A stretch of 64,000 bases of DNA from Urechis unicinctus (lineage: Eukaryota; Annelida; Polychaeta; Xenopneusta; Urechidae): assembly GCA_034190875.2 (NCBI GenBank), contig CM067354.1:49971908-50035907 (forward strand), in the 5' to 3' direction. The notes beneath the pieces were generated by a model. The model was not told the origin of the DNA and ran no database searches. It saw only the letters and a program-made list of their open reading frames with translations. Below, one piece after another: positions 1 through 53,591 of this stretch. The stretch's first letter is position 1. Each line of letters begins with the position of its first letter. Made by a program: the position numbers and the translations under genes.

Positions 1-925
1 GTATACTATTGACACCTGTTTTTTTTTATGATGCTTTTGTCATTAATCAATACTGTTAGGTTATTATTCAAACTCATCATATCCATATAACTCATAAAGC
101 TGCAAACAAATATATCTTTTATGTCTAATGCGTTAAGAGAATTGCGTATATATAACAGAAATACAGGGGCAAAAGAATACCAATGATATGATCAATACTA
201 ATTCGTAGTTAAAATACTGAACATGACTTATTTATTTGTGATGCAGCACATTGCATGATTATTTGCACAAATACATTAACACGTTTGCCAGGCAAGTTTC
301 AATGATTAAATATGTTTAATCAACCCAATGATTTGCTGTATCATTATCAAAATGGCAAAGACATATGCTTGATGCATGTCATTCTCAAATGAAAAGTAAG
401 GTCATTTTTATTTCCTGATGTGATGTTTCAACATAATTGTATTCTTTATGCAGAAATGCAGAATGAAGCCGGCAAAATGTTTTTAGGGCGTCCAAAGTTT
501 GTAGTACATGGCGTTGCATGTTTATCAAGTCAAAGTAATAATGTCAATCATCATTGTTCAGATAATGCTTAAGCTTGAATGTTACATAGCTTTGTTTCAG
601 AATTTCTACCCACGTTTGCATAGTGCCCATTTTTCCCAATGAGTCAGTTTACCATATCGACAGCAAGTTACCATATACAGGAAACATTTGAAAAAACGCA
701 TATATCGCGGTCGGTAATATCTAGTGATGATGCAGATCGAGAGTTGGTGGTTTGGTTCAATTTGCCACACTATGCGGGTACTCAGAAGCATGGTCAGCAT
801 TAAAAACATTAGAGAGAATGGTCTGAATGCTTATTTTGTTATAAGTGCAGTATATAGCCCCTGGACGAAGGCTGATTGTCGTGCAGTCCATACGTGAAGA
901 AGCAAACTATATATAGTGAAGCAAC

Positions 926-1111
926 TCATAGTACAATATCGCCAAACTGCAGTTTATTTTCTATTGTTGCTGGAAGTGTAAAAAGGCTCCAAGATGCTCT
1001 GGCGCAATAAAACCCCGCAAATCTACCTTGATTCAACGGCTTAAGGCATAGAGAGCATATGTTTGCAAACATTGCTATGCATTCAATGAGGAAATTTCGA
1101 TATACGACCAA
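926..1111 (-). CDS. Small conserved ORF downstream of the KCNMB-like pseudogene
   Basis: I do not recognise this ORF. It is kept in the same relative place (3' of the KCNMB-like locus, same strand) and the same frame on the right arm at 53,002-53,223. The shared core contains ICSLCLKPLNQGRF followed by ASWSLFTLPAT. In the aligned core several differences are synonymous third-position changes (for example ATC/ATA, CTG/CTA, TTA/TTG, CCG/CCA), which hints at past coding constraint. There is a CxxC pair but no recognised domain, signal peptide or splice model. It could instead be conserved 3' UTR of the KCNMB-like gene. The left copy stops earlier than the right one. Confidence 0.3.
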   Translation of the reverse strand: MVVYRNFLIECIAMFANICSLCLKPLNQGRFAGFYCARASWSLFTLPATIENKLQFGDIVL

Positions 1112-1221
1112 TCGGAAGCAGCAAAAGTTAAGAGAACAACAGCCGACTAATAATGATTTTACAGACGGATAGCATTAAACAAAATGTATTTCATAACTGA
1201 TTTCAGTACATATAACCGGCA

Positions 1222-2067
1222 CTTAAACTTGCATTCATATTTCGCGAATACATATTTGAATGATATATGTAAATAAGTACAATTATTGATGCTAACAATG
1301 CAATAAAAGGTCACATGCTGTAAATGAAATCGATGCTTCAGTTAAACAGGGTCTGAGTTATGAGGATTGTACCAACAAGGATAGCTGCGATTCCGTCGGC
1401 CATATTGAATTTCGAATCGACGCACAGCAGCTTCATTCTCGACTTTGGATCCCAAGCAGGTCGGGTAGAAGGAACACTGCAAATAGCACATACCATACAC
1501 AGTCCGTTCTAAATTAATCATGAATATTGATCATTCTTAACATGCTTCATTGACGATAAAGTGACTTACTGATTTGTGCAAATATGTCTCATCAACAACC
1601 AACGGAGAAATACGCATACTGTTATAGAGGTCTGTGATAGCGACCATAATACGAACACATGGATAATGTGAAGTGCATCCTTTACCACACGAACATTGTT
1701 TGTAAGCTGTGTATTCCGTCTCATTTCTAACGCACTCATTGACAATAAACCGTAACCCTTTTGTGTATGGTAGAAGAATGAACGTCGTACTGACAATCAG
1801 TGACACAATACTGCAAAGCAGTATCATTATCAGAAGTAGGTACATTGTCAAAATACAAGAGTTTGTAAATCTACAATCCATTTGTTTGGCGCATGTGTCT
1901 GATTACATCCTTAGTGAGGGAAAGTATCTAGACACAGTGTATTCCACGCTATAATCCTCAGCATCGCTGCTTTCACCACATCCATCACCGGCTGACGTAG
2001 TTTGGTTATCACCGTTTTCCACGTCCGAACTAGGACAAAGACGTATACAATCTTCTCTTTCATCCAT
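1222..2067 (-). pseudogene. Decayed BK-channel beta-subunit-like gene (left arm)
   Basis: This is the partner of the intact gene at 51,970-52,836. Exon 1 runs 2,067 to 1,570 and exon 2 from 1,476 down. The donor (GTAAGT at 1,569-1,564), the acceptor and the 93-bp intron length are all preserved. Three lesions break it. There is a TAA at 1,903-1,905 where the right copy has TCA. There is a second TAA at 1,342-1,344 where the right copy has TTA. About 17 nt are lost near 1,310, which shifts the frame before the second membrane segment. Six nt (two codons) are also missing ahead of the first membrane segment. The loop cysteines and the YPC motif are still readable, so inactivation looks recent. 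Reinitiation at the Met at 1,881 would not rescue exon 2. Confidence 0.8.
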
Positions 2068-2926
2068 GTTGCTGTTTTTGTACTATAATTCACTCTAATT
2101 GCACTTCACCATGCAAATATTCACCGTTATCCATATACGTACCGTCTTGAGATTGGTTCAGGCTAGACAGATATTTTCCAGTCTCATCTGATTCATCTGA
2201 CCATCCGCACTCTCCCTCTTTCAAACGCGACTGAGCCTCGAGCGAGAAGAAAAGTGCCCATCGCAGATTGGCGACTGCGCTGAAAAGGCATCTGGTCTGC
2301 TCTGTGAAATCACATTTAAGGTAGAACACTGCTTGGTGAATGGTGTTGTTTGATTCTGCAATTAGCATAAACGCCAGCATCCTAATCATTATATCGGACA
2401 TTAGCCCGAACACACCGCTCTTATTAGGTTAGAGCTTTATGTGGGTAGCATGGACAGCGGTAGTGATAAATATACAGGAGGTCAACAACCAATTAAAGCG
2501 AAGCGTCTGAAGTAACACTGTATAATATGCAGGTACTGTTCACTTGTTTAATGTAATGGTTCCAGCGATATCGTAATTTTCCCAATACAAAGACTTCATC
2601 TGCTTCAGACCTCATTGCTATTGATATGAATTCCAACACGGCCGTGCTTTAATTCTAGGTTACTCAACGTCATAGTACAGAATATGGTAATCATGCTACA
2701 AAGAGTCTTGTCTTGCAACCCAACACAAAGAAATATTGATATTGACACCCACAATGGGATGCTAAAATGTCGTATGGAAAAATAAATAAAGAAACCTTAT
2801 TTTCTTTTTGTTTCACTGCTTCACCGAGCAATTTCGTGACCTTATGCAAAGACCATAGGGTACATTCGGCACCCTGTTACAGGCATGATGACCAGTTACT
2901 AGCTCATTTCATCCATATCACTACAC

Positions 2927-6449: not shown

Positions 6450-7975
6450 TAATGAAATGAATTTACACCAGACGAGACTTTAGAATGATGTATTAGTTAT
6501 CAAAATATGTTGAATGTTACGCAAAGTTCGATTTATTATGCGCAAAGTATTTGAATATGATTCTGTATTCACTTTCATGAGGATAATTTGAAATCCGTAA
6601 TAGATTCAGTCCAGCAGATGATTTTATGCAATTTGTCATGGTATAACAATCAAACCTTCTTAATAAAATATTGCTCCTATTGTGTCTACAAAAGTAAGCC
6701 TCGAAGAAGAAAATATTGTACATCTTCCACTAAATCAATGTCGACAGATGTTTGGAGATCTTTAATTCCATATTGCTAAGAATACACTAATTGATCTCTC
6801 AAGTAACTGGTAAACTAGTCGCTGTGCCCTTTTCTGGATGGTGGCGTTAATGATGGTGTGGCAGAACCCCGTGAAAGTCGAGACATCCATACATACCATA
6901 GAAGCTCCATATCTCTAATCTTCTCTGTAAACTCTACAAGCGCTATCTGTCAACACATTGTCTCAATATAACTTCACCACGTAACTACATTTAATTATTG
7001 CTGTCAGTTCAGAGCGGATGTCCTTGGCTATTGTGGTCGACCATTTGTACATGCGGCTGTAGTTGATATGTAATTCACATCAATATCAGGGCTACATGGG
7101 CAACATAGATCGCTAACGACAACAACTTGTGAATTCATTCAATTTCCAACGTAATGTATACCCTACTCGTGCGCATCAAAATATGATAAAGTCCACGTGT
7201 CTGTCTGCTATTTCAGGCGAGACAAAGCAATGGTAGCGACGAATGCTTCTATCACGTCGTATTGAAAGAGCAATCCAGACCAGTTCTCATGTTGCCTTAT
7301 TCAGCCCTGCCTACCCTGACCCCTCCATTATCTTTGGGGTTTTTATCTTGGCCCAGCATCATGTTTGAAAAAACTTGCAGGAAATAAATCAAATCGACAG
7401 TAAACGCATTCTAGTTCAAATAATCGTACAGTTGGTACAAACCTCTCATCAACCACAGCCGAAATGCGTTACAATAACTTAGCAAAACCTAAACATCTGT
7501 ATGCTAACTTCCACCATTATACCTTCCACTCGTTTGAATACAAAGTGTTGGCAGAACATTCAATGTTATTTCATCATGATTCCGCCGCACATTCTGTCGT
7601 AAAGTGTCAGCTTTCATCACAAATATCATTGGAAAACCGGAAAAATGATCCATGCAATTACTTTGTGTGCTATTATAACACAAGCCATGGGTGATGCAAA
7701 ACGAAGCCCGTCAAAGACAGTAAATTGATGGAGAGGACCAGTATTCAAGAGAAACCATTGCAATAAATCATATCTGAGATGCGATGAAGGCTAATCTGTC
7801 CATTCTCTATTCATAAAGAAGAACAAATAAAGAACAGTGGTTATTTATTATTGTCAATCATAACTGAGACAGCAGTCGTATTTTGACTACAATGACAAGT
7901 CACACAGTTTGCTCTATGCCAATATATTCAGAAAAACGTGTTAACAGTAATTCATGGTATAACAATCAAACCTTC
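6450..7975. other. Unpaired left-arm sequence, no gene seen
   Basis: Homology with the right arm fades near 6,450. No ORF here has a recognisable motif or splice context. The phrase TCATGGTATAACAATCAAAC occurs near 6,640 and again near 7,955, marking a short direct duplication that ends just before the GGCC-motif segment. 11,200-12,560 is similar: AT-rich, without a gene I can support. Confidence 0.4.
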
Positions 7976-7976
7976 C

Positions 7977-9776
7977 TAATAAGCCCGTCGTGGCCCTTCA
8001 AGTGGCCGTGATGCACCTTGAAAATGACCAAATATTACGGCCAAGTTTGCCGTGCTCTTTCCCCCCATGGCCGTAGTGCCCTTTTTCGCCTTTTGCATCC
8101 AAGATCCACCGCGGCCGTCTGCCGGCAGCCCGACCTCGCCGCCGACAGCATCTTGAACCTTATTATTACATGCCCAATTCCAGCCACTGCTGCATTGAAC
8201 ACGACACACAACCAAACTCCACCACACGGCCTCATTTCCGCTGACAGATTGACCTCTTTAATGTTGGCCCCTCCGAAAATTAAACGCAACACACATGTAA
8301 ATAGCATTGAACTCATTGCTTTCCAGCAGAAGGAACATCATTAAACGAAGGCAGCTGCTATCCAGAACTTAATGTAGACTGGTCGTTACTCAGTTTCTCA
8401 AACTATTCTAAATGGTGACGTCTGATCTTCGGGCTAGGAGAGCGAACCAGCAAGGGCGCAGCGAGATCAGTGAGCGAAATCAATCATCCCTGAAATCAAA
8501 GTTGCTGCTGTGTGCGATGTTAACGGAGACCAGAGTTTTTGACAACCAAGGTTGTGAGAACTTCTGTTGTTTATTGAACACGCTGACAGCACATGATTGG
8601 TAAAAGTTTGACATCGCGTCGTCGTTGGACATAGCGTCGTTAGATTGTTGTCAACGAAAATACACACTTATCGTATGCTGTCACACCTAGTCGTTCATGG
8701 TTTTGAGTCCTTACTAAATAACATCGAAATGCCACGAAGGGATCGTTTGAAACGTCCTATAAATGAATTGCGTTTTAAATTTTCAAATCTTATTTTACAC
8801 TCACTGCAACATTGTCTTGTGAGAACACAGAAAAGAAAGTCTAGTGATTGGACCACAAGGCTAGTCAATACTTACCGCGTCTAGTGATTGGTTTTAAAAA
8901 GACTGTTCAGCCCCATATAAGGCAATCAGGGATCATTTCGTTATAACATTATTACATTTAACGCAGACGTAAGTAATGCCATCTTTAAATTTGTGCCGCA
9001 AAATTTACATGATGGAAAATTATGTTGATAAGTTTTTAACATTATTATTTGACTGGAAATATTCATGATCTACTGTGGAAATCTGTTTTATTCAGTTATG
9101 TCGTTCCATCGATAACGGTGCCTCCCTAAAACCATGAACCACACGAATGTTAACTATAAATCATAACACGCTCTGAATTTACCTCGCTATCGATGTGTGT
9201 ACTTCCGCTTTGGTTACATAATGTAGATTTCATCAAATCTTCAATCATTCAAGTTGTGGGCATCTTTGCGCACACATTAGACCGACAAGCAGAAAGGGTA
9301 ATGTACGACAACATAAATGGCGACAGCCGATGTAGCGACTGAAAGTCTGAAAACTTAACACTTTTGGTTTTCAAGGTGCGGTTGCCAAGCAGCTTGCTAG
9401 GCAACCTCGTTCTAAATATGGGGCTGAACAGTCTCTTTAAGACCAAACTTCCTCTCCTCAAAACATTTTTCATCAAGTGACAAGATTAAATGAAAAGAAT
9501 AATTCTGGAGCGCTCTAATAAATTATTCATAAAATGCAAATAATAAATTTACAATTCTTTTAAACTTAAAATTGATCTGTGCTTCCATAATTGTTTGTGT
9601 TTTTTTTCCATTTTCTTCTTTTGTAAATATTACAAGTTTAAAAATTCTTTGGCCTCTGTGCCCTTTAAAATGTTTCTATTTGGCCTTGGTGCCCTTCACT
9701 TTGGCCTTGGTGCCCTTCAAAATTTGCACCTATCGAAGGCCAAAGTGGCCTTGCCCTAAAAATGACGAAATTCCAG
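7977..9776. mobile_element. Left-arm-only insertion bounded by GGCC-rich motifs
   Basis: This segment has no right-arm partner and sits next to the third KCNMB-like copy, whose readable part stops near its right edge. Both ends are rich in GGCC phrases in the same direction. The start reads GGCCCTTCAAGTGGCC and GGCCAAGTTTGCC. The end (9,650-9,776) reads GGCCTTGGTGCCCTTCA twice and then GGCCAAAGTGGCCTTGCCC. The 8,000-8,300 part is clearly more GC-rich than its surroundings and is open on both strands, but no domain is recognised. It contains the inverted-repeat element at 8,887-9,447. I infer a composite insertion; its class is unknown. Confidence 0.4.
8887..9447. mobile_element. MITE-like element with ~32-bp terminal inverted repeats
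   Basis: The left arm (8,887-8,918) contains AAGACTGTTCAGCCCCATAT and the right arm (9,416-9,447) is its near-perfect inverse (ATATGGGGCTGAACAGTCTC then TTTAAGACC). The interior is about 500 bp, AT-rich and without a transposase-like ORF. This is the layout expected of a non-autonomous DNA transposon. Target-site duplications were not identified, and the outer ends may extend a little beyond these arms. Confidence 0.5.
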
Positions 9777-9789
9777 GCCTGATATACAC

Positions 9790-10450
9790 AACGCATGGAT
9801 CACCTTTCCGGTTTACTCATGATATTTGTGATGCAAACGACGTGACTATCGAACAATTGTTATATATGCGAATAACGACGACATTATCAAATGACTTAGT
9901 TGTTTGTACAACACGAACATTGCTTATGGTAGGCTATGCATTCCGTCACCTTACTTATGGACTTGGTTTCAATCAGCACGAAAACTGTTGTGTGCAGTAG
10001 CAGAACGAACTCCGTACTGACAAACAGTGACACAAAAATGCAAAGCAGTACAATTATAAGAAATGCATCAATTGCCACATGCAAGGCTTCTTTATTCAAC
10101 AGTCGATTTGTATGTATTTTGATTCAGGTGACGTCATCAGATAGGCTATGTATCCATAAGTTTCTCGCTATCATTCTCTATTTCGCTGCTTTTACGATAT
10201 CCATAACCATCTGAGATATTTTGGTTATCAACACTTTCCGCGTCAGAACATGTCACTATTCACTTTACAATGTTCACATGATTTCCCTTTAGCATGCCAA
10301 TATCTTACGTTATCTACGTTTCACATGATTTCACCTGGAGATTCGTTTAAGCGTCCTCAGATATTTTCCAGTGACCTTTGAGTTGCCTGAAGACTAGTAT
10401 GTGCCGTACTGTAATCGCGGCTGAGCATCTACCTGTAGCAAGTAGACCAT
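9790..10450 (-). pseudogene. Third, older BK-beta-like copy (decayed)
   Basis: On the minus strand the order matches exon 1 of the 51,970-52,836 gene. It has a Ser-Asp-rich N-terminus (SDAESVDNQN compares with SSDVENGDNQ), then a hydrophobic segment with LLCIFVSLFVST, then ECIAYHKQCSC, which compares with the ECVRNETEY...KQCSC loop. Stops interrupt the N-terminal part (TAG, TGA, TGA) and the loop (TAA after QCSCCTNN). The upstream part (to about 10,450) also resembles the 5' flank of the left copy (an AGATATTTTCCAGT phrase and a CGCGGCTGAG phrase), so a whole locus was duplicated. Exon 2 is not seen; the GGCC-bounded insertion begins where it should lie. It is much more diverged than the two arm copies. 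Confidence 0.65.
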
Positions 10451-10839
10451 GAACTCCTCTGCCATGTGATAATTCGGCTGTTTGATGGTTGGGTATAGAA
10501 GGCCCTAGCAGATTTGTTTCTATGCTGTAGTTAGGACATGGACTCGATAAACCTGTAGATGTGCGAAAAGTAAGTCATCGTGGGCGTCCAGAATCACGTA
10601 TGTAAATATTAGCGCATTTAAATATATACCTAGCTGGTCAGTAATTCTTGGTTTAACCTTCGAGGACTCGGAGGAACAATCTGTTACATTGAATGTTAAA
10701 TACCTATGTTTCCTTTTTTATATATAAGTCAGTGCATAAACCTATATCGTTAAATTTTGTTTGCACGATTGATTTGAACATATTCTCGGTTCGTTCGGCA
10801 TAAGAATTTTGATATTTTTAAAACTGTTAAATTACTTCC

Positions 10840-11200
10840 AAAACACTTTTGGATTTATTCTATCATTATCTGACACTCTATTATTACTCGTTTAGTAATA
10901 GCTTTTTTTCTATTATAATTGATCTGATTTTCGATTGCTGGACATCTGGAGAATTCATTTCGTGCTTGATTACGTTCTCTAATAGCTTTTTGACACTCTT
11001 GGTTCCACCAGGATTTAATGTTGTGTTAGATTTCGTTGTTGGTGTTGCTTGGTTGGCTGCATCATAAATGATTCTCCCTAACTTGATTTATGTATCTTGT
11101 ACATTTTCTGCAAATATGTCTTCTGTTATTTTGTCAGTACATATGGTTTAAATTTCTCATCCTGTTGCATTTTCCACTTAAGAATATGATCTGCAAGCAC
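10840..11200 (-). mobile_element. Non-LTR retrotransposon (LINE) fragment
   Basis: The minus strand encodes the linker between endonuclease and reverse transcriptase typical of I/Jockey/CR1-like LINEs. The motif WWNQECQKAIRERNQAR begins near 11,010. It is followed by a basic stretch with RKKAITK, and NPKVFWK is readable in another frame downstream. The upstream piece (TTKSNTTLNP) is in a different frame, so at least one frameshift separates it from the WWN motif. Neither the endonuclease catalytic part nor the YxDD reverse-transcriptase core is present. It lies in the part of the left arm that has no right-arm counterpart. Confidence 0.6.
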
Positions 11201-13139
11201 CGTTTGATCATGGATTATAAGGTTATAATATTTGTTAGTTGGAACATTTAGCAATATTTATTATAGTCTATTTAACTGTTATTGTCATATATATTATTGA
11301 TATAAAAAACACTTTAAGACAAATTTATTTTCATAGTTTGATTCCCAAATTCATTTCAAGTATCAATTATCCAATATATCAATTGTACCAATAAACGCAG
11401 CCCTTCTTTAGCCTCATTGTCCCTGACAGTCCTATAACAATAAAATAGTGTATGTAAGATTATAATCTGTTTAAAAAGGTCTCTTGAATGCATATTATAT
11501 GCGGCTTATATAGAGTTGGGTCATTATAAAGTCTTAGTCCATTATCATTTCTTCTTAGTTCATTTGCGTTCCATTGTCAAATGATGAACATCATGGATAA
11601 TATAACTTATGATAGTGTTATTATGAACCAATGGGATACCAAATTAAAATGACATTAACCCACGAGCGATCAATACTTAGCTCTTTATGGTTAAAAAACT
11701 CGGGAATCAATCTGGTGTACGTTTGACATACATAGATATGATAAATACACAATCATTACCATCTAGAATATTCTACTCATCTCAAAGAGTTTACAGCTAA
11801 GCTACGATGGCTAACTCGCGCATCCTTTCGCTAAATATGTGAATACTACATATGTAAGGTTGTGCTTTGTCTCATAGCGTTTCTAAGAACCACATAGTAT
11901 GTTCTGATTAATTCGGGGTCGTGTTTTATAAAAGGCGTTGGATCAACAGCGCCATGTTGTTTTGTTAATTTAATGGTAGCGTTACCTGATCATGGATTAA
12001 TGTTTAAACCATTTTCACGCTCACCACACAGCTAATTTGGGTTAGCCCTCTGAGCGTTGCTTCACGTTCTTTGGTCATACTTCTAAGGCGATGTGTGAGT
12101 TGATAGTATCAGTTATCACGGGCCTTTCCCAAAAACATATGCGGGCTAAAATTCGTGGTTGATGCCTTGGATAATGTCAAATAACCGGCACCAACAAGTT
12201 ATAGAATAGAACACACAGAAAAATGAACTTTGTCTTTTATGTACGATATTAGACATATTAGTTGAGGTTATTACAAAAGAAACATGGTGCCATGACAAAT
12301 AACACTTTATGACATGTAACTGCTTATTTAAGTTTCGAACAATATCATGTTGTTGATTCGCTATGTCCGAGTTCACACACTTCCGGTACTCAATCAGAAC
12401 GTGTACATAAAGTATATTTCGGTCGCATAAACATCATAACGTAAAAACAAAAACCTTGAACACTACAAGTATGTGAGATAATGATGTCACATTGCCAGAA
12501 TCAGTAATTGCTAAGCAGCTAAATGTGTTCTTTCATTTATCTCATATGTGAGAATAACTGCTGATGTGGAATATTTAAATCAGCTAATATTTTAAAACAA
12601 ATCTATGGGTCTTTGTTCGAAACTGATCAACTTGCAAGATGACACATATTTCTGTCTACAGTGTAATCGTTAATTTTTTGAGACCTCCTTAAATCCCGTG
12701 ATAGATTTGACAAATTTGTGGTAACACTTATGCAATCTTGATATCACCCCAGACCATCCTCGCCATTTCAACTCGTGCCATGGTTTGTATGTGATGCACA
12801 CGTATATACAAAGGTGATGGGTCAATCGCTATGTAGAGCTATGAATAAATCAGAGGAGAATTTTCTATGACATAAACTGCCTTGATTGCCTATAATGGTT
12901 GTTCTAACTGAGCTATATAGAGGTTATGCTAATGTTGTATTAAACAAATTCCACACAATGACTTCCTGAGAAAGTTGATATCGGCAGTATAAGCAATGGT
13001 GCTCCATAAGTTACATATTATTAACATTACGCTGTCTGAAATTAATGTTTACACGTGTGTTTAGTGAGCTCACCAATTTAACAATAAAGTACCAGCATTT
13101 AGAGCTATTGTGGAAATTGTCAGTCGCATGAAATATTAT

Positions 13140-26622: not shown

Positions 26623-26623
<1 letters not shown>

Positions 26624-26707
<84 letters not shown>

Positions 26708-29760: not shown

Positions 29761-29783
29761 TTTGTTGGGAATGGTCTTCAATG

Positions 29784-33900: not shown

Positions 33901-33926
33901 GGCACACCACAGACAATAGCGCCGAC

Positions 33927-34288: not shown

Positions 34289-36433
34289 ATGCTATGCTTA
34301 CCTGTGAACTGTGTTGATATCTGTAGTTCTCTTACCGGGAATGGAACTTACTCCGACGATGAGCTATACGACGATGTGCCACTGGCTGACAAAGAACTAC
34401 CAATGGGGGAGCGCGGAGATGAGGATTCTGGTATAGACTCACCAGTCAAACGCATCCGTCCTGCCAAGAGGGACAGTTCTGTCTTGCACGACGAGCCTAG
34501 GTACGTTTTAAGGAAATGTTTGGCTATAGGTTTTAAGATATGGGGCACTGGTATATTATTGTTTCGATGGTATATTTTTTAATTAATAATACGGTTTTAT
34601 TAACTCGCAAATTACGCTATATACCAACTATTGATGATTACGTTTGCAACCAGAATACGATGTATGCGATTGTCGGTAATGGTTGATCTATCAATTAGTA
34701 CAGTAATTAAAAGTACACGCTAATTAATATTATTGTTTATTAAGGAAATCGACAAAATCAATCAAACAAGGGGATGTCGCATTTGTCAAGCCGTACAAGA
34801 ATTGCGAAGACCCTCAAGCATTGAATAGCCATCTAGATGCACAAGATATACCTCAAGACCACATCAGTAGACTACAGGTCAATAAAGAGGGCGGTACGTT
34901 CGTCGACAACCTACCCAAGGTTCCAATGACCATTGATATACCAGCTGGCGCTGTGAGAACACAGACAAATATCGCCATCATCCAGACATTCAACCGACGA
35001 TTCATGCCAATGATGGATGACAATAAGAAAATAACATGCCCATTGATTCATTTCTTTCCACACCAGCTTCGGTTGGAAAAGGCAATGACTGTGACGCTTC
35101 GACTGCCTCAGATGAACCCATCAAAATCGTATCATGTTTTATACAGCCCTACCGATATTGGAGATGAATGTGAGTGGATCGATCTGACAGAAACTGGACA
35201 TTCTGTGGCTGGGGTAGCATCACAAGTAAATGCAAACTCCAAGGAAGTCGTCTTATCCCTACTGCATTGCTGCGTATTCAGCATAACTGAGATGGTACCT
35301 GATGAGAACATTGCAAAATTCTGCATGGTACAAGCTTCACTGCTGTATAATCAAACGAATGACATGGTTGACGTGTGTGTCGAAGTCTCTCCTGACGACA
35401 ACGATGCTGTCATGACGGTAGGGAATATATTATGCATACAAGACTGTGACGACCAAAAACATAAATCATTTCATCATTTGTAAATATCACACGAAATGGT
35501 TAATGTGCAGGGAAATGATGTCAGACAGCGCCTCTGCATGAAAAAAAACTTAAAGCCTCTAGAGTTGACTGTAGAGACGTCGCTATTTGAAACTCCTGCA
35601 GGGTATTCAATGGTACCTGTGACTCCCCACAGTGAGGTAAAGTGTTTATAGGCAATCGCCAAAGAAGGTATGGATGCTTGTAAAAGAGTACATGCATAAG
35701 TCAATTCAGAGTTATACATTTCACGCAAATGTATTCGTTGGGTTCTATATTCGTTTGGATGCTATATATACAAATTCGTCCTGATTATCTGTTGAATACG
35801 TGGTATTGTTAACACCATGCAACATTAGGTTAGGTTTCTCGCAGCTCTGTTAAAATGCGGATGTAAGATATTCTCTGTTTGCAGGTACTGCCTTTTTTGT
35901 CAGCATGGATGAATAAAATCGATCCGAAAAAATACCAATTTAAATTGAAGAGATCATCACTAGTCCAGCAGAATGTAATTGTTGTGTGCCGTGTACTTGC
36001 CAAGCAGCAAGAGGGTGATAATGATGCTGTAACACTGAACTTTTCTAGACAGCTCCAACTGATGGCCAATGTACGAAGGGGTAATTGACCTATAACTTAT
36101 ATGAATAAATATCATATTGGTTAATTATCTGGTCGATTGCTATGTAAAATGAAACCAATGACCGCGGCAACAGACACATACACGTACATTTGTATGATAT
36201 TTGAAATAACACGTAATGTGATTTCTCTACTTATATTAATGATATCTGTCAAACGCATCAATCCACAGGCCGGTGATGTACCACAGCCGGTAGCTTCCCC
36301 ACCCGATGCAGATTTCAATGCAACACCAGCGCGAAATAGCGAACCAGATACAAGAATTACTGAAGCAGAATGTGAGGAATATCTCGAGAGATATTTTCCA
36401 AACGCTATAACATCCAATTTTGAACACCAATGA
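34289..36433 (+). CDS. ZU5-UPA domain protein (UNC5/PIDD/ankyrin-like), no death domain
   Basis: Five-exon model: 34,289-34,500; 34,745-35,417; 35,511-35,636; 35,885-36,080; 36,174-36,433. It totals 1,467 nt, 488 aa, with all phases consistent and GT..AG borders. Residues 1-71 are acidic (SDDELYDDVPL, GDEDSGIDSPVKR). Residues about 120-255 form a ZU5 domain (GGTFVDNLP, IDIPAGAVRT, MTVTLRLPQ, SKSYHVLYSPTDIG, LLHCCVFSI). Residues about 300-400 match UPA (GYSMVPVTP, VLPFLSAW, VVCRVLAKQQEGD, AVTLNFS). The tail has IFEITRNVISLLILMISV and then a Pro-rich/acidic end (EAECEEYLERYF). No death domain follows, unlike UNC5 and PIDD, and no transmembrane ectodomain is seen upstream. Likely a cytoplasmic scaffold or signalling protein. 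The start is uncertain: the TAG at 34,322-34,324 could be an acceptor, with exons further upstream. A shorter last exon from 36,269 is possible. Confidence 0.7.
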
Positions 36434-39400: not shown

Positions 39401-40021
39401 CAATATACGCTGTATTCCCTCCGTTAATAACAATCATTTGTAATTTATATTTTGCCACATAAAACATCCTATGCAAATATTTCCATGCATGTATAAATAC
39501 CCTGCAAACATGGCATGGATTTTCAATTTCCTGCTAATCAGTTACTTGTATCGCCATTTAGTCCTTCTGTGGATGATAGATAAAGACTGGGCATTGCCAT
39601 AAAACCAATCTAATCCTGCGAATGATTTATACTGAAGCGTAACTCGCATACACTTGACACACTAGTTGCATGAATAGAACTGATGTGCCTATATATCTTA
39701 CCTATTGATGTGGATGTATCGGGAGTAAAGCTTGTAGCAACATAACCTTGGCTCAACGGATGATGAGTGAATTATCACAAACGTCGCTGAGGCTCTTGGA
39801 TGGGGTTACAGTGCAAACATCCGTCTAAGGAAGCCCACGTATCATTAAAGTGATGTATTGCCTATCATAACTTAGAGGCGGGAAGTCATCACAATTATGG
39901 GGTTGATCCGTGTTAACAAGTGATCGATTTTACTTGCGAATCCTTAGTTGTTGCCCATTGTAAGAGATTACAACGAGGAATCACAGGTCCAGAGAAGTCT
40001 ATGGTTTATTTTATACACCCC
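36434..40021. other. AT-rich arm DNA between genes
   Basis: No supported gene. 39,100-39,420 pairs inversely with about 17,945-18,260. 39,640-39,860 pairs with about 17,590-17,790 (phrases on the CTTCTTTATCGGGTG side of the left copy). The stretch 37,769-38,062 has a minus-strand ORF with short hydrophobic runs but no conserved partner noticed. Confidence 0.35.
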
Positions 40022-40174
40022 CTATGCAGGTGGGGAGTGTTGCATTACCGACATGGTTAAGGTTTCATATAGGGATCCACACGAAGAAGTGTTTCCACAG
40101 TGGTAGGCATTTATTTGCCCGACTGACACTCTATCCGTCTTTCCAGACGCTTTTTCAAACAGCCATTGTATTTC
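40022..40174 (-). CDS. Terminal exon of an unknown Cys-motif gene family
   Basis: On the minus strand a clear acceptor (CCTAATTTCTTACAG, ending at 40,175) opens a 50-codon exon: EIQWLFEKASGKTDRVSVGQ, then CGNTSSCGSLYETLTMSV, ending QHSPPA and TAG. It shares CGNxxxCGSxYET and the QHxxPA terminus with 4,571-4,690 (+) and with the broken copy at 48,480-48,600 (-). The polypyrimidine tract plus a cross-copy conserved stop make a real last exon plausible. It runs opposite to the KCNMB-like and ZU5-UPA genes of this arm. The gene body upstream is not identified. Confidence 0.38.
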   Translation of the reverse strand, partial: EIQWLFEKASGKTDRVSVGQINAYHCGNTSSCGSLYETLTMSVMQHSPPA

Positions 40175-40493
40175 CTGTAAGAAATTAGGTGGTACAAAAC
40201 TGAGGTAAGTTGCTAAAATGTTGCAAATATCACTAGGAAAGCACATTTACGCGGTAATGGTTATATATATTTCAAAAGGCATAGGAAACATGAATGATGT
40301 AATTTTTAAAAACTTTCAAGATAGATATAGATGGTGTACAATGATAGAAGCTGTAAGATGGCTAGCTATGCCTAGGTCACATGGTACGATGTTGTGGTCA
40401 CATATACGGGTTGTTCATATACTCTTTTAAGTTTCTTAGATTAAGTTCAGTTCACTTCAGTTTTTTAGAGCCAAGCGATCTCTACCATTCTAT

Positions 40494-40697
40494 TTGATCA
40501 AAACTGATGATTTAATATACGCCTTAAGGACACAACAAAATGGCGTATTGAGTTGTACTGGGTCCATGCAGGGGCCGCACAGGACCTGTCGGAACCCGTT
40601 AGAGATCAAGGGGACAAGCGGGCCCCAATCATCTTTCTCAGCAGATGAAGTTACATGCGTATTTGACAGTACAATTAACGGATTGTACAATAATTAA
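40494..40697 (+). CDS. Unknown Cys-containing exon-like ORF (right copy)
   Basis: Partner of 16,878-17,090. It carries VLSCTGSMQGPHRTC, PLEIKGTSGP and ADEVTCVF in frame and ends at TAA. The cysteine spacing and the PLEIKG block are the same in both arms. Upstream of the shared part the two copies differ, so the exon start is unknown. There is no recognised family. Confidence 0.3.
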   Translation: MIKTDDLIYALRTQQNGVLSCTGSMQGPHRTCRNPLEIKGTSGPQSSFSADEVTCVFDSTINGLYNN

Positions 40698-42667
40698 CAA
40701 GCAATGGGCGCAGTCATTAGCTGATTTCCTAACTATATAACAAACTTCCGGTGATCATCACATGCCACGCAGAGGCATTTACGTGCAGTGATCAACAGCT
40801 GAATGTGGATTAATGTCACGCTAGAAACAGCTAGGAACTTTATGTGTTTGTTTTTGCTAATTATAGTTGATGAGATAGTTTGGTGATGAGATGCGGTTGA
40901 AGTACGGGTCTTTGTTATTCAAATCGCTTGTAATGACGACCGTTGCTAGAAGTCAGATACTCAGTCAAATTACCAAGAGACCATAACTTTTCTCTGTCTC
41001 TGCCATTGGATTTATTTTCCCTATTTATATATCATTCTATTGGATATCATTCTATTTTTGATAATTGAATCGCCGAAAAGTTTATACCATTTTCACGAGT
41101 TTCATATCTTAAAATCAATTCAAGATACCTCCTCATGCTTGGAATTGTTTTTCTTGTTTGGAGCTCGATGCATAAATAGGCAACCGAACATAAAATGAAC
41201 GTCACGGGATGAACCTCAAGCAACAAGGTCTAAGTTTCCGCCAGGCAATTGTCCATTGGCAAAAATTCTCGCTGGGTACTCAGCGGTATTTCAATCAGAG
41301 CTATCGGGAGGATACTATCACCTTGATACGAAAGTGAAATCAAGTGTGTATTAGAAAATCAAAGAGACATGCTTACTTTGAGCAACGCAGTTATGATGCA
41401 ATACAATCCCAATGTTAGGGTTTCGATCAGTGGCGCAGCTATGATAAAATCTCGCTAGAATGGATATTATCTTCACAATATGCGACGAAACGTTTTCGTT
41501 TGTGTTTAAGACCATATATAACCAGACTACGATCTCATACTATCGATATTACTATTTCCATCGTGGTCTTTTCCTGATACCGCTGTCGTCAGTTGAAAAT
41601 TAATTGATTCGTTACCGACAATATTGGTCAGATTAGGGTTATATTAACAATAGTTCATATCACATGAATGGGTTATCTTTTGATCATGGTTAAATACTAT
41701 GTACTTGAATGTCATTGCCTTGGTATGTTGCCGATGCACAAGAGAGGGGTGTAGCCAGATGGTAACATTCTATAAAGTGCTTGGAATACACGGCCATATT
41801 ACGCAATTGTCCATGAGTTGATCTGAGTTTAAATGATGTCCCGACTGAGCTATAAAGAGGTTTATGTAGCTCGTTAATACAAATAATAGCTACCTCGGGA
41901 AGCAGTTTCGGTGGATATCTGTATCATAGAATAGCCATAAAACCAATTCGTTAAGTAGCGAACGCAATGGTGTTGCATTGATGATACATAGTAGAAGCTG
42001 AATGTCTATCTACACATCATGTTGCTACCATTAGCTTCCAGAGCAGTTGGGTGTTCTGTCAACCGCAGGAAATATGGTCAACATTGTGATTCGACATTCC
42101 ATGAAAATCAACAATTAATTACGAACGAACATAATCAATTGCACTCCATTGTGGCATCATCAGGGTATGTGAAAAAACTGACAGCAAGAGGGGTTAGCCT
42201 CAATGGACATTTAAAGGTTTTTACTTATCAGTGGCCTTAAGAGTGTATAATAAACACGAAGTTTGCAAATGACATCTGCACAGCTCGATACAGCACGAAT
42301 TGCGGAAATGACAATCTGAATATTTTTTTTCAACCCGTTCGTACCACAAGCAATGCAACCTCAAAAGTCATCTTTGTTAGCTAAAGGGATCTCAATATTC
42401 AACAACACTCAGAAAGTCTTGATTTTATCTATTTAATTAATGACTACTGTAATAAGGCTTATTTATATTGCCAAGTTGATATGTTCACTAAAATAAGCAA
42501 TCAGTTATCTGCCTATCCAGAATACAACTTATTAGCCAACTGCATATTTGTTATCATCATTGGCACCGCTTCTTGTGTAACCTAGTTACTAGAAGTAATG
42601 AGAAATGTTAAGTGCTGGCTGATTGCACATTTTTAATGATAGATATAGCGCTAGATAACCATATGAA

Positions 42668-42961
42668 TTGGTAAAAAGCCATTCAAGCTTGGTTATTGTA
42701 CATAAGCAGGGTACTATATTTCCCTTAAAGCAGACAAACCAATACCAGCGTCGACAAATCCATTGCGTAGTTGCAGTACGATCTTGTCTGCAATGCAAAG
42801 CTTCTCTTTTCGACAAAAACCCCAATAAATCAGAGGAGGCACAACTAGATAGACACCTGCTTCGTGGAAACATTTTGAAAATAACTGCGCCAGCAGTGCA
42901 ATGTTTGTTCATTCTTAGGCATTTCCGTTATACGAAAATATTCAAGATGTTGAGACTTTGA
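42668..42961 (+). CDS. Unknown exon-like ORF, distant member of the KSEEGQL family
   Basis: This 97-codon ORF contains CLQCKASLF and NKSEEAQLD, corresponding to the KSEEGQL exon at 2,927-3,145 and 50,745-51,017. Its inverse partner at 14,913-15,158 is shorter and shifted in frame. After AQLD the sequence diverges from the other subfamily because of indels, and the C-terminal part (LFILRHFRYT) is shared only with its arm partner. Function unknown; it may be a decayed copy. Confidence 0.22.
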   Translation: MVKSHSSLVIVHKQGTIFPLKQTNQYQRRQIHCVVAVRSCLQCKASLFDKNPNKSEEAQLDRHLLRGNILKITAPAVQCLFILRHFRYTKIFKMLRL

Positions 42962-44964
42962 ATAAAGGTGTACCATTGCCTGATTGATTATTGTGCTATT
43001 GATATTGATATCAACTGGTCTTCATGCCTATTAAATGGTGATATACATGAGTACCGAACGTTCCATTCCCAAGAACAGCCTGATGTGTTAACGCAGTCTG
43101 TGTCGGAGGTGATTTCAGCTATTAAAGGTATATCTTCAGGAAAAGCAACGCCAAATACCAACGATATGACAGATCATAATGTAATTTGTAGAGTCACATC
43201 TTTCAAACATTTCTTCTTTTCTACCAGCAGACATGAGCTTTGGCTCTGCTCGAAGCGGTGAGCGAGGACAGATGTGCTATTTCACTCTTAACAAGCAGAA
43301 GGGTTTTTATCAGACCAGTGACAGCTGTAATGACGTAAGAAAATATCGTTGCTCTACCACAGTGTGTCCTGGTACATTCAATTATTGGCTATGGAAACAT
43401 ATAGTAAATTGAATACGATTAGCATGTTCCGATCAGGTCTCCTCTCGGACACCTGACCCTCTGCCATACCGTGAGTAACTGCCAAGGCTCCCTGGTTGCC
43501 ACATCTACCCCACCAATTCAAATACCCAGGGTTGAGGGGAACCGCCCACCAAAATTTTTAGACACGAGATAACTGGGCGATAATGAGGGTGTGCACTACC
43601 GTCCTGGACACAGAAGACATATTTATCTCAAACCAACAAATATAGTCATTTAGTTGACTAGTACATCAAAATAAACTCTTCAGATATGTGATGAGATATA
43701 CCATTTCAAGAATATGATTCTGATATGGCTTGTAAACGATCGCAAATATAAGCAATATAAATATCCCTCGAACTCACACTCGCTTATTGTTGACAGAGCA
43801 GAGTTTCGTCACAAGGCTGGAGATATCAAATGAACTTTCAAACCAGACCAAAAGCTTGTACGTCAGTAGCTAGTAATAGTATTTCGCGACCGATCAGGTG
43901 CAAACGCCCGAAAATATGGTGGGGTTAAGGTTACAAATCTCAATCTCAATTCCAACCATCAACAGTTCACGACTTTAAAAATATGAGGATATCTGAGCTA
44001 TGTGTATGCGTATCGCTTATTCTCCGTTATATTGGTGTTCCGTAGTAATGGAGGCGTAAACAACTGATGATTAAAACATGTCGGTGTGGATGCTTAGAAT
44101 TAATATCGAAGTTTTGTAATTAGATATGTATTAAGCCTTATTCTTTGAGTCAGTAAAAAGTTTTTGGATCAAGCGCCGAAAAGCGTCACCTGTTGGGCTT
44201 TTCAATTGGGTGTAGGAGTGACAGAAACCACGTAAAACGATTATTGCCCCAGTAAATAGCGCATGTTGGCCCCCGGTATAGGGCACACAATCTAGTCTAA
44301 TAGATCTTATCAGACACACGCGTACTACCTGATATATCATGTTCTATAATCTTAGCACACGTGCAACGAGCAATGTTGCGCGTTTACAGTGCATTAGACA
44401 CTGTTTGGGAACCTCGTAAAGTTGCCATTTCTCATCGAATCACAAATCCCTGCTTTCGGACGTTATAATGTTTCATACTACTGACAATTTCTACAATGGC
44501 TCCAGATGCTCATACATTGTTGTTTAATCAGTGGGTTTATTACACACACGTGTTAACATTTAATTCATAGAGCTAATGGTAATGATATGTAACCATTACT
44601 TCTGCGGGTTTTTTGAGTTTTCAATAATGCCAATATCAAGATCTCAGGAAGTCATTGAGTTGATTTTTTTGTTTTATACAAGATTAGCATAACCTCTATA
44701 TAGCTCTGTTAGAACCACCATTAAAGGCAATCAAGGCGGTTTATGCCATAGAAAATTGTCCATTGATTTATTCATAGCACTACATAGCGATTGACCAAGC
44801 ACCTTTTTCTTTACATGTGCATCACAACCATACCTTGAAATGGTAAGGATGGTCAGATTGCATAAGTGTGACCACAAATTTGTTTTGTCAGATCAATCAC
44901 TGATCTTTTGGGATTTAGGGAGTTCTGACTCAATCATTTAACGATTACACCGTGAAGAGAGATA

Positions 44965-46300
44965 TTTGTCATCTTGCAATTTAATCACTTCCAAACAAAG
45001 GCCTTCTGATGAATTCGACAATTGCATCTGCTATTATGATGCCTTGAAATTCTCATTAATTGGAATATTTCGATCATTTCTATGCTTAATTAATTCGTTA
45101 CTTACTGTACAACATGTGAAAAATTATACGGACTATGTGTCATATGCAGGTCATGTTTTAGCTCCATACAAATATGCATGCGATATCTTCACCATGCCCC
45201 AATAATGGCTTTGAGCTCACTGGTCATATATAATAAGACCGTTTCATAACAAACGCTCTGCTACAATGCGCCGACACTAAAGCAATTACAGAATAGCTGC
45301 TAGATCTATATTGACTGTAAACTGAAAATAATTGCATAGGAATATCTACTCTGACATTCAGAGGCTGGTATTTAGAGTTTAATGTAAGGGTTGTTCCAGG
45401 CAAAGCATCTGGTTCTCGTTCCCTGTATAACAGATGTGCATTTATTTTCAGTAAAGGAATAAGTGTTGGTGCGTCCAATGCATTAGTTAATTAGCTCGCG
45501 GAAGGTATATTATGGGTGATGTTCTGCCCGGAGGTCTCAACGATAGCAACAATTAGTATTGTTCTGTCTGCATTCGGACTCTGTAAAATGCATGTTGATA
45601 ATAATAATGAATTAATATGTATTGTTAACAGTGAAATATATGATCATACATTGCTCGAAACAGCATCTTTGGCTTAGTTTGAGCTAAGGCTAATCATTGC
45701 CTCAATAATCGAACACCAGCGCCCCATTGCAGTATGATGGATTGCACAGTGCATGGGAGCATTGATTATCCCGCCACTGATGTATTGCTTTCTGAGTAGC
45801 AGATGTGCGTTGAGGACAAGTATACCTACTGAAATTGAGTCTACACTTGGAAGTAGCTGCTTGTTAGGGAGTCAAATTGACAATGTTCTCGTTGACAGTT
45901 GTGGTTTTGAAAACTAATGAAGGCACTCGACATGTGTGAGTTCACATAAAAGAGTGATCAGCGCGGCAATAAATTCTTGTTTGTATCCCCCGCCGTCCAG
46001 TTTTATTATATGATCTGTTCATGGTGGGGTAAGCATGTGCACCTATCTGTATTAGGAATACATGAAATTCAATGGTCGGTTATTTCCACAACTAAGTCCA
46101 TCAGGCATGGAACAGGGAACAGTGACAAAGTCATCAATATTATAATGCTGCACCAGTAACTTCATACTTATATTCAAGATACCGTATGAGGCGTGTATTT
46201 CTAAATGGCGTAATGTTTGGCTGAACTGCAACTTAATGCAGAAGGAATGTATCACTAAAACGAAAAAATCAATTGCGAGTGGCGCGGTCACTCACTTCCT
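44965..46300. repeat. Segment repeated in direct orientation at 58,300-60,480
   Basis: 45,170-45,265 matches 58,355-58,450 (ATGCATGC.ATATCTTCAC.ATGCC, then GTTTCATAA.AAAC.CTCTGC.ACAATG). 45,960-46,100 matches 60,275-60,410 (GCGCGGCAAT.AATT, TGATC.GTTCATGG). Same orientation, clearly diverged, with more material between the anchors in the 58-60 kb copy. No gene is recognised in either. Confidence 0.6.
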
Positions 46301-47289
46301 AGCACAATTACAAACCACATAGGATCATCACACATTACCCTAGTGCACTAAAAGTAGATAACCGTAACCTTTAAAGCGGCTGGGATCAATTGGGTCGATT
46401 TGCAGATGAAAAACGCGGCATATGATGCTGAAAATATTCGGTTTCTCCTCATTCCAATCATGTTTGATTATCTGACAGGCAATTTTGATAGCTAATACAT
46501 CATTCTAATGTCTGGTCGTGTGTTGAAGTATTTCATAAATCTAATCGTTAGCTCACATTTTCGTTTCAATTCATATCGATACTGCTTCAAATTGTTATTA
46601 GGATGCTACTCTGATCTTTAAAAAAATAGGCAGCAGTGATTACTTTCTCTTGCTCATATTTGCTGCACTAATCACAGACTGAGTGAACTATTGAAAAAAA
46701 TTTGTGAAATGCGATCGATACCTGACTAGTATTTAATCATAGCAAAACAATTAGTTGCAGTTTACTAACCACAGGCATGATCAGACATATAATGATGTTA
46801 GTTTAATTCAACAGTAATGGTCGTTTGGTGCATGGCCAACCATGTAGCAGTACATTTGCGTAAGCCTTGTTAATCACTCGGCCAAGGATGAAATTCAATT
46901 TTCAGAGAAGCAGTCGGCTTGACTGAAACTTGCTTGATATAATAGAGTGATATTATTACATGTCTCATTTCATTTACGTTATGCAAAACCAGCAGATCCG
47001 CAGCCAGTTCTTTACATTTATGATATAGCTGGGCACATGGGTCTAGCAATTGGTACCATAAGTGACTTGTTTGCTTGCATAAATGGTTTATCACCGGATA
47101 TTACATTGTATGTTATAGTCAAATATATTAGTAAATCTTGTGTACATATGACAACTAGGATCAGGTCTGCAACATCACCAGATACATAACTCAATTTGTT
47201 TGTTTACTTTTCTCGGTCATTCTTCTTGGAAAAGGGCAATATCAAACAAGCTTCTGTAATTTTCGTCATGTTACTATCCATATCTCGGT

Positions 47290-47440
47290 ACAATGATGAG
47301 CAGCATAGAAGAGCACGGCTTGCTGCTACAGGGTTATAACACCACGTGTTATAGCTGGTTTGCATCCGATGCCAGCTATAACACGTGGTGTTATAACCTT
47401 TTAGCAACAAGCCGTGCTCTTCTGTGCTGGTCATTATTGT
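47290..47440. repeat. Snap-back hairpin: 69-bp arms, 13-nt loop
   Basis: 47,290-47,358 and 47,372-47,440 are inverse copies with about six mismatches. The loop is TTTGCATCCGATG. The innermost 30 bp or so (GGTTATAACACCACGTGTTA plus TAGCTGG) are exact. The matching left-arm site (about 5,695-5,800) has only one of the two arms and the loop sequence, so the second arm is a local inverted duplication of about 55 nt added on this arm, as expected from template switching. Confidence 0.9.
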
Positions 47441-47562
47441 ATATATAACACCAATGCACTGATCACTGGGGACAACATATGGAATGGTATGGCTAACGAT
47501 AGAGATGATCCAGACTATTTTATTATGGTTACTAATATCAACAGACAGTATGATGGCGTCAG
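47293..47562 (+). pseudogene. Right copy of the SSIEEHG exon, broken by the hairpin insertion
   Basis: It begins with the same double ATG and SSIEEHGLLLQGYN as 5,568-5,786. The 55-nt snap-back insertion shifts the frame and leads to TAA soon after. Beyond the break the ancestral frame continues (WNGMANDRDDPDYF, VTNINRQYDG) to a possible donor GTCAG/GTACC at 47,562/47,563. On the other strand the same insertion happens to join short frames into a 165-codon ORF, which I regard as accidental. Confidence 0.45.
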
Positions 47563-51817: not shown

Positions 51818-51969
51818 CGGATGCCACCCACCGGCAGAGGAGCAGCTCGCTACAGGCAGAGGCACAGTCGCGTTTGAAAGAGGGAGCGTGCGGATGGTGA
51901 GATAAATCAGAGGATTAGAACGGCACGGTAGTATGCAATGTGAGTGAATTATAGTACAAAAACAGCAAC

Positions 51970-52836
51970 ATGGATGAAAGAGAAGATTGTATACGTCTTT
52001 GTCCTAGTTCGGACGTGGAAAACGGTGATAACCAAACTACGTCAGCCGGTGATGGATGTGGTGAAAGCAGCGATGCTGAGGATTATAGCGTGGAATACAC
52101 TGTGTCTAGATACTTTCCCTCACTAATGATGTCATCAGACACACGCGCCAAACGCATACAAATGGATTGTAGAATTACTAAGTCTTGTATTTTGACAATT
52201 TACCTATTTCTGATAATGATACTGCTTTGCAGTATTGTGTCAATGATTGTCAGTACGATGTTCATTCTTCTACCATACACAAAAGTGTCACGGTTTATTG
52301 TCACCGAGTGTGTTAGAAATGAGACGGAATACACAGCTTACAAACAATGTTCGTGTGGTAAAGGATGCACTTCACATTATCCATGTCTTCGCATTAAGGT
52401 TGCTTACACAGACCTCCATAACAGCATGCGTATTTCTCCCTTGGTTGTTGATGAGACAGATTTGCACAAACCAGTAAGTCACTTTGTCGTTATTGAAGAA
52501 TGTTAATCATTATCAATATTCATGTAGAAATTAGAACGGACTGTGTATGGTTTGTGTAAATGACAGTGTTCCTTCTACCCGACCTGCTTGGGCTCCAAAG
52601 CCGAGAATAAAGTAGCTGTGCGTCGATTCGAACTTCAATATGGCCGACGAAATCACAGCTATCCTTGTTGGTACAATTCTCATCACTCAGACTCTGTTTT
52701 ACTGAAGCGTCGATTTCATTTACAGCATGTGGTTCACGGACTACTGTGGCCTTTTATTTTATTTTTAGCATCAATAATTGCACTTATTTACATATATTAT
52801 TCAAATATGTATTCGAGAAACATGAATACAAATTAA
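51970..52836 (+). CDS. BK (Slo) channel beta-subunit-like two-TM protein
   Basis: Exon 1 is 51,970-52,473 (168 codons, donor GTAAGT), with a 93-bp intron, and exon 2 is 52,567-52,836; both are phase 0, 257 aa in all, within the range of KCNMB proteins. The order is: an acidic cytoplasmic N-terminus (1-70), TM1 about 73-101 (ILTIYLFLIMILLCSIVSMI), and an extracellular loop with Cys at 114, 127, 129, 133, 139, 169, 175 and 202. Then comes TM2 about 226-245 (WPFILFLASIIALIYIYY). Loop landmarks match the CaKB family: CSCGKGC..YPCL, CSFYPTC, SYPCWY and HGLLWP just before TM2. NET (117) and NHS (197) are possible N-glycosylation sites. In that family such proteins set the gating and calcium sensitivity of BK potassium channels; insect TipE is a distant relative. 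ATTAAA overlapping the stop could be a poly(A) signal. Confidence 0.82.
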
Positions 52837-53001
52837 AGTGCCGGTTATATGTACTTATTGACCGATATCAGTTATATTAGCATAGGGTAGCATTTTGTTC
52901 AATGCTACCCTTCTGTAAAAGCATTTTTAGTCGATTATTCTCAATATCATTGCTGCTTCCGATTCGTCTTATATTCAAATCTCCTCATTGAATGCATAGC
53001 C

Positions 53002-53223
53002 ATGTTGGCACATATCTGCTCTCTGTGCCTCAAGCCGTTAAATCAAGGTAGATTTGCGAGTTTTAGTTGCTGCAGAGCATCATGGAGCCTATTTACACTT
53101 CCGGCAACAGTAAAAAATGAACTGCAGTGTGGCCATATTGTACAACTATGCTTCATCACGTATGGACTGCAGGACAACCAGCCTTCGTCCAATGGCTATA
53201 TACTGCAGCTTATAACAAAATAA
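53002..53223 (+). CDS. Small conserved ORF downstream of the KCNMB-like gene (right copy)
   Basis: Partner of 926-1,111. Shared ICSLCLKPLNQGRF and ASWSLFTLPAT, same frame, same strand as the KCNMB-like gene, starting 165 bp after its stop. The right copy runs about 25 codons further (YGLQDNQPSSNGYI). No domain, signal peptide or acceptor is evident. Alternatives are conserved 3' UTR or an independent small protein. Confidence 0.3.
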   Translation: MLAHICSLCLKPLNQGRFASFSCCRASWSLFTLPATVKNELQCGHIVQLCFITYGLQDNQPSSNGYILQLITK

Positions 53224-53591
53224 GCATTCTTATGTTTTAATGCTGACCATGCTTCTGAGTACCCGCCTGTTGTGACAAATTGAACAAACTCTCGATTCGT
53301 ATTATCACTAGATTATACCGATCGTGATATATGCGTATTTTCATATGTGTCCTGTATATGGTTGCTTGCGGCCGATATGAGATAACTTTTGTTACACTGA
53401 CTTATTGATTAAAAGGGTGGCAATATTTGTTCCGTAGGATTAATGGAACAGAATGCAAAACGCATTAGACATTAAAAATATATTTGTTTGCAGCTTTGTG
53501 AGTTATATGGATATGATGAGTTTGAATAATAACCTAACAGTATTGATTAATGACAAAAGCATCATAAAAAAAACAGATGGCAATAGTATAC

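Follow-up and report, generated by a model that had tools for sequence, protein, structure and literature searches.

This study asks how a very large inverted repeat came to occupy most of a 64,000-nucleotide stretch of the genome of the annelid Urechis unicinctus (GenBank assembly GCA_034190875.2; 1.19 Gb, 926 contigs). The stretch, called the window below and meaning the whole of the DNA analysed, covers positions 49,971,908-50,035,907 of contig CM067354.1 (C13; 79.6 Mb); position 1 of the window is C13:49,971,908, negative values lie to its left and values above 64,000 to its right. An initial annotation had read the repeat as an old head-to-head duplication or a single large palindrome around a spacer of unrelated DNA. 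The analysis presented here indicates that the two arms belong to an array of about 14 units, many of them carrying a gene that resembles the beta subunits of BK channels (Pfam family CaKB), and that recurrent inverted duplication of this local gene family, together with duplication of whole palindromes and patchy gene conversion, probably built the array, the mechanism being one that we infer.

Self-comparison of the window by BLAST recovered an inverted collinear chain in which positions 1-23,038 match 53,591-34,837. The top inverted blocks scored 1692, 1459 and 1279 bits, whereas 10 sequences shuffled by a first-order Markov model each gave a top inverted self-match of only 31.0-38.3 bits, which confirms the giant inverted repeat. 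The inner edge given in the annotation, at 24 and 34.3 kb, was not borne out, the actual limits being 23,038 and 34,837. With 100 kb of flanking DNA included on each side, the chain was extended to 34,837-68,391 against 23,038 to -14,938 in 32 collinear blocks (15 of which end within the 53,591 limit), and the outer end thus lies outside the window, as had been supposed. The extended chain is 86.4% identical over 17,882 aligned bases, with a further 1,396 gap columns. The resulting parts of the window are as follows.

1-23,038, extending to about -14.9 kb; reverse relative to the right arm; left arm (unit B), from self-BLAST.
23,039-34,836; no strand; palindrome spacer, from sequence comparison.
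34,837-64,000, extending to about 68.4 kb; forward; right arm (unit C), from self-BLAST.

The arms are far from identical, as described previously. Identities of the blocks in the full chain range from 69 to 97%, with numerous gaps and with large indels such as that between left-arm positions 6,507-12,607 and right-arm positions 45,004-46,481. The mean ungapped identity between the B and C arms is 86-87%, and a profile along the arms averages 86.7% with no long homogenised tract: zero 500-bp bins with at least 100 aligned bases reach 95%, none exceeds 94% along the right arm, and a single 134-bp block (1-134) stands at 95.5%.

The DNA of both arms recurs outside the window. In searches of the genome, for which all row counts are lower bounds, a non-gene segment of the right arm (55,001-60,000) gave 80 rows, all on C13 at 49.93-50.41 Mb, and a second one (37,212-42,212; 40 of 49 candidates scored) placed 66 of its 75 rows on C13 at 49.91-50.41 Mb, the remaining nine being pieces of 37-55 bp. 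All 22 rows of a gene-bearing segment (653-2103) fell on C13, 16 of them in the array and six weaker ones (71-78%) outside it at 43.54, 43.56, 71.97 and 78.46 Mb. A frame resembling the ZU5 domain (34,728-35,483) matched nine times, always on C13, at 49.898-50.400 Mb and in both orientations. These results bear on the proposal that the arms are terminal inverted repeats of one very large mobile element, which would account for inverted ends around a repeat-rich middle and for an element-like frame at 27,276-27,965. However, the arms carry a host-like, intron-bearing gene, and rows away from C13 do not exceed 55 bp; since the non-gene arm DNA is confined to one locus, this extremely improbable explanation was rejected.

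The array comprises about 14 full or partial units at about 49.90-50.41 Mb of C13, in the orientation order LRLRLRLRLLRLRR, where L denotes the orientation of the left arm and R that of the right arm. The units (in Mb) are listed below.

Unit 1: 49.898, L.
Unit 2 (A): 49.909-49.929, R.
Unit 3 (B, window): 49.973-49.994, L.
Unit 4 (C, window): 50.007-50.024, R.
Unit 5 (D): 50.096-50.120, L.
Unit 6: 50.142, R.
Unit 7: 50.148, L.
Unit 8 (G): 50.170-50.187, R.
Unit 9: 50.201, L.
Unit 10 (K): 50.238, L.
Unit 11 (M): 50.243, R.
Unit 12 (H): 50.293-50.319, L.
Unit 13 (I): 50.356-50.371, R.
Unit 14: 50.399-50.409, R.

Units were grouped by hand and post hoc from two landmarks and an intron segment, omitting small fragments (for example at -40 to -30 kb). 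In this hand-made list, successive paralogous units at one locus lie in opposite orientation, with flips at 11 of 13 steps (binomial P 0.011, permutation 0.025), where a plain head-to-tail tandem array would give zero. A full unit has the ZU5-like frame at one end and, on the same strand towards the other, a two-exon CaKB gene, intact or broken. In the best-read part of the array, units A to D, neighbours meet alternately at their ZU5 ends and their CaKB ends, and the centre of the window is a ZU5-end turn; turns lie at about 29 kb and 87 kb in window coordinates.

The spacer was also found elsewhere, contrary to its description as unrelated DNA. Pieces from window positions 23.7-34.4 kb are present again at -71.6 to -64.1 kb, unchanged in orientation and lying between facing ZU5 copies as in the window, and in reverse at about 149-168 kb. 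Within the latter region, a tandem 4.75-kb unit derived from the spacer occupies 150.7-168.5 kb, in the spacer of the next ZU5-centred palindrome; relative to the first copy, the second full copy is 98.0% identical, pieces of 3.2 and 4.1 kb are 95.5 and 99.4% identical, and a 1.1-kb piece is 89% identical. Because spacer pieces recur at neighbouring palindromes, whole palindromes were probably copied with their spacers, and one copy lies reversed, as recombination between inverted arms would produce. Two sites within the window spacer (25,849-26,032 and 30,775-30,902) share a 44-bp minisatellite and several hundred bp of flanking repeat, and the element-like frame (27,276-27,965, reverse strand) encodes 229 amino acids with a YTDTDSL motif, presumably that of the B-family DNA polymerases of Polinton-like elements; it had no Pfam or Protein Data Bank (PDB) match.

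Seen in the window alone, the locus does resemble a single old giant palindrome, formed head to head around unrelated, transposon-rich DNA, and the B and C arms contain no long homogenised tract. Yet numerous copies of arm and spacer DNA, facing both ways, are spread over 0.5 Mb of the assembly, which contradicts a single palindrome and makes it very unlikely. What survives of the earlier interpretation is an old inverted duplication, in keeping with the mean identity of the arms; the palindrome itself accounts for only two of the units.

Gene conversion was assessed from right-arm profiles in 500-bp bins, with unit C compared to units A, B and D. Against D, identity is 77-96% up to 55 kb and then 98-100% over 55.0-60.7 kb. 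The best C/D block contains 43 mismatches in 54,400-55,000 (about 7% divergence, on the inner side) and just 16 in 55,400-60,661; identity in the adjoining block (60,427-61,440) is 99.8%, the 0.8 kb after it lacks a match in place, and 62,250-64,000 is 92.2% identical overall, with bins of 88-89% followed by bins of 98-99%. Against A, identity stays at 82-91% as far as 38.5 kb, lies mostly at 93-98% over 38.5-44.5 kb and is then mostly 91-95% for a further 3.5 kb. Two stretches stand out.

55,200-61,440; no strand; C/D near-identity tract, about 99.7% for 5-6 kb, matching the inverted arm at about 119-112.7 kb, 51-64 kb away.
38,500-44,500; no strand; C/A high-identity stretch, matching the same-strand copy (unit A) about 95 kb leftward.

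A near-identical tract within longer, diverged homology is the pattern that ectopic gene conversion leaves. The earlier conclusion that strong arm-to-arm conversion is lacking applies to the B/C pair only. Around the CaKB gene, the inverted pair H/I is 96.7% identical over 1,499 columns. In the same region B is 85.1% identical to C, compared to 86.5-89.4% for A, D, H, I and K, 84.2% for G (844 columns) and 77.6% for M; the comparisons with G, M and the outgroup cover 835-1,064 columns. Five other units (A, D, H, I and K) resemble C more closely than B does, so the window arms are not each other's closest copies around the gene.

The same data address the concern that the array is an assembly artefact of unmerged haplotypes or of contigs misjoined in inverted order. 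In its favour are 7.2 kb of N situated some 15 kb outside the window and a tract of about 99.7% identity that could resemble an allelic pair. However, that tract lies within collinear homology, the remaining bins of which are mostly at 77-96%, which is unexpected for haplotypes, and the window arms are about 13% divergent, carry large indels and set a broken gene against an intact one. An artefact is accordingly improbable, and a recent haplotype duplication unlikely, as the initial annotation had argued.

The gene in question was located through a splice site and an exon-2 alignment. It and its counterparts in the left arm are the following.

51,970-52,473; forward; CaKB exon 1, encoding the N-terminal part, the first transmembrane segment and most of the cysteine loop, with a GTAAGT donor (predicted splice).
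52,567-52,836; forward; CaKB exon 2, encoding the remainder of the loop, the second transmembrane segment and the stop (predicted splice).
1,230-2,067; reverse; left-arm CaKB copy, broken by in-frame stops, exon 1 and exon 2.
9,902-10,144; reverse; older, degenerate fragment of a CaKB exon, left arm.

The right-arm gene is predicted to have two exons separated by a 93-bp GTAAGT...CAG intron and to encode 257 amino acids. Its spliced product matches Pfam CaKB (PF03185) at 70.3 bits (E 2.2e-19), above the cut-off of 25.1, while exon 1 alone falls below it (19.5 and 22.2 bits); it also matches the BK beta-4 chain 6v22_E (E 2.8e-10). Hydropathy peaks at residues 72-91 and 226-244 give the two transmembrane segments of the family, and all eight cysteines between them align with beta-4 cysteines in an alignment read by eye. 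An open frame at 52,891-53,223 was considered as the second transmembrane exon and rejected, the true exon 2 being the one listed above; the other copies shown carry stops or breaks there. A codon-position selection scan of frames of at least 30 amino acids revealed no clear exons among the 60 frames listed, many of which have frameshifts or stops in other copies.

Nine CaKB copies in the array were examined by anchors (A, B, C, D, G, H, I, K and M), of which five (A, C, D, H and I) are intact, all five with the GTAAGT donor and the predicted 93-bp intron. Copy G is frame-disrupted with a stop, the match to copy K is split across several frames, copy M could not be resolved by the anchors, and of the piece at 50.201 Mb only a fragment of exon 1 was seen. 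The five intact copies have a pooled ratio of nonsynonymous to synonymous differences (pN/pS) of 0.40, and the corresponding ratio of substitution rates (dN/dS) is 0.25-0.53 among their 10 pairs and 0.29-0.34 relative to an intact paralogue at 78.456 Mb; the first exon of B, the broken copy, gives 0.67-0.77 when compared with A, C and D. These values fit moderate purifying selection, which may act on some of the CaKB copies.

Genome-wide, 56 rows with E no higher than 0.01 merged at 1 kb into 31 CaKB-like loci or fragments, of which 27 lie on C13; two on C11 are 2.2 kb apart and may be one gene. A second inverted CaKB-like pair is present on C13 at 43.539 Mb (reverse) and 43.565 Mb (forward), about 25 kb apart and 99.73% identical over 372 bp, and is possibly a young palindrome. 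The concentration of these loci on one chromosome, the existence of this second inverted pair, and the combination of inverted arms, multicopy genes and conversion-like tracts are all features expected if the locus consisted of ampliconic palindromes of a sex-linked region, maintained for arm-to-arm repair. The compared arm pairs, however, mostly lie far below the arm identity of more than 99% given for mammalian sex-chromosome palindromes in PMC8981503: the arms in the window are at 86.4%, and just a tract of another array pair reaches 99%. Nothing in the analysis indicates that C13 is sex-linked, and this explanation is very unlikely.

The second open frame of the unit is the ZU5-like one.

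34,728-35,483; forward; ZU5-like frame of 251 amino acids at the inner edge of the right arm (tentative, below the Pfam cut-off).
22,389-23,042; reverse; left-arm ZU5-like copy with an internal stop.

It scored 18.7 bits against a Pfam cut-off of 21 and gave a weak row to ankyrin-2 (E 0.54), and a single-sequence fold was uninformative (predicted local distance difference test score 32.8) and was not used. Among the five copies compared, the one in the right arm is intact, those at 22,389-23,042, 148,280-149,029 and -63,310 to -62,607 contain stops, and that at -74,002 to -73,246 is split over two frames; pairwise dN/dS is 0.51-1.11. The frame is treated here as a landmark and is a probable decaying gene.

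Taken as recurrent inverted and whole-palindrome duplication, the history of the array may be sketched as follows. A local block containing the CaKB gene would first have given rise to an inverted copy through fold-back or template-switch repair; recombination between repeats would then have copied or flipped entire palindromes together with their spacers. Most arms would later have drifted, while some tracts may have been overwritten by conversion between copies. Some CaKB copies would have been retained under moderate purifying selection and others, such as the left-arm copy, would have decayed, and the set of BK-channel auxiliary subunits, a function assigned from homology, has probably become larger and slowly diversifies as a result.

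Several points weigh against this interpretation. The unit list was assembled by hand after the matches had been seen, the excess of flips over random orientation is modest, and two of the 13 steps show no flip. The order of the array rests on the assembly, in which a 7,189-base N run (78,712-85,900) lies between the C and D arms, and the region at 50.156-50.41 Mb was mapped via search rows and a few loci of 3-4 kb. The outer boundary of the A/C high-identity stretch is not sharp, and C/D identity climbs back to 98-99% at 63-64 kb after falling to 88-89%; piecewise later duplication is thus an alternative cause that could, on the sequence patterns, have produced the high-identity tracts. The tree of the CaKB region is poorly resolved save for H/I and gives no clean duplication history, for which it was not used. 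Finally, both the succession of events and the pathway of repair are deduced rather than observed.

Other features of the window include an imperfect palindrome of about 150 bp in the right arm (47,289-47,441; 86.6% self-inverted), perhaps a small element, and older direct repeats (about 65-91%) within one arm at 39.7-42.3, 48.1-50.2 and 55.2-55.5 kb, from which the unit itself seems to be built from tandem modules. An Rfam scan returned 0 families at the gathering threshold, and a tRNA search found 0 genes. A genome query for mitochondrial COI gave no match, an outcome that carries no weight in this type of search.

The potential partner of a BK beta subunit is also encoded in the genome, where a Slo1-like gene is present on C3. 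Slo-like exons share 48-76% identity with a human Slo1 peptide in 19 rows (the query sequence being approximate), far less than a vertebrate genome would give, and the best Slo1 exons matched PDB chains of the BK channel 5tj6 at 262.8 bits, slowpoke at 255 and human-type Slo1 at 225-235. We take the 5tj6 chains to be from Aplysia and slowpoke to be that of Drosophila. The channel exons by themselves thus point to a non-vertebrate and probably lophotrochozoan host. Further Slo-like channel loci occur on C4 at 12.71, 12.78 and 24.86 Mb, and the Slo channel family may also have expanded.

Inverted multigene arrays with conversion are of a known kind. Mammalian X/Y ampliconic palindromes (PMC8981503, PMC4772468) share large inverted arms, multicopy genes and arm conversion with this locus, but their arms are described as more than 99% identical, whereas here the window arms are at 86%, conversion-like tracts are patchy and units are serial. 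The sea urchin Sp185/333 genes (PMC5103432) likewise form an invertebrate multigene cluster with both gene orientations and segmental duplications; two of their clusters span 39 and 6.4 kb, with tandem duplications of 4.2-4.6 kb that are bounded by GAT repeats and have one orientation per cluster, while the units here are tens of kb long and mostly alternating. In Adineta vaga (PMC5916493), homologous blocks are reversed on one scaffold; these are homologous gene copies throughout the 2013 assembly, with no such arrangement seen in A. ricciae, in contrast to the local paralogous array described here. Fold-back inverted duplication near inverted repeats is a known route in yeast (PMC10622511), established experimentally in Sae2- and Mre11-deficient cells, and may have acted in the C13 array. 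As for the gene, vertebrate KCNMB proteins (beta-4, 6v22) share its two transmembrane segments, eight aligned loop cysteines and a CaKB domain above the cut-off, but overall similarity is weak (43 bits), the host is not a vertebrate and the amplification is in inverted units.

The locus stands out for units that alternate in series across half a megabase, for a BK-beta-like family found almost entirely on one chromosome, and for its non-vertebrate host. Titles and the starts of abstracts in the open-access literature contained no report of such an array or of an invertebrate CaKB expansion, which is weak evidence. A bolder and rather doubtful extension is that this is a lineage-specific radiation of invertebrate BK beta subunits, nearly all on one chromosome; inverted duplications that propagate themselves as a chain would generate it and keep it diverse, with gene copies being shuffled and rescued through patchy conversion of opposed arms.

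The array offers a natural series of inverted duplications of varied divergence at one locus, with both intact and decayed genes, and so allows inverted-arm conversion to be measured. Mammalian auxiliary subunits have been called a novel feature relative to invertebrate Slo1 (PMC6934384); given that statement, a set of CaKB-family genes in a non-vertebrate makes the origin of BK beta subunits a testable question.

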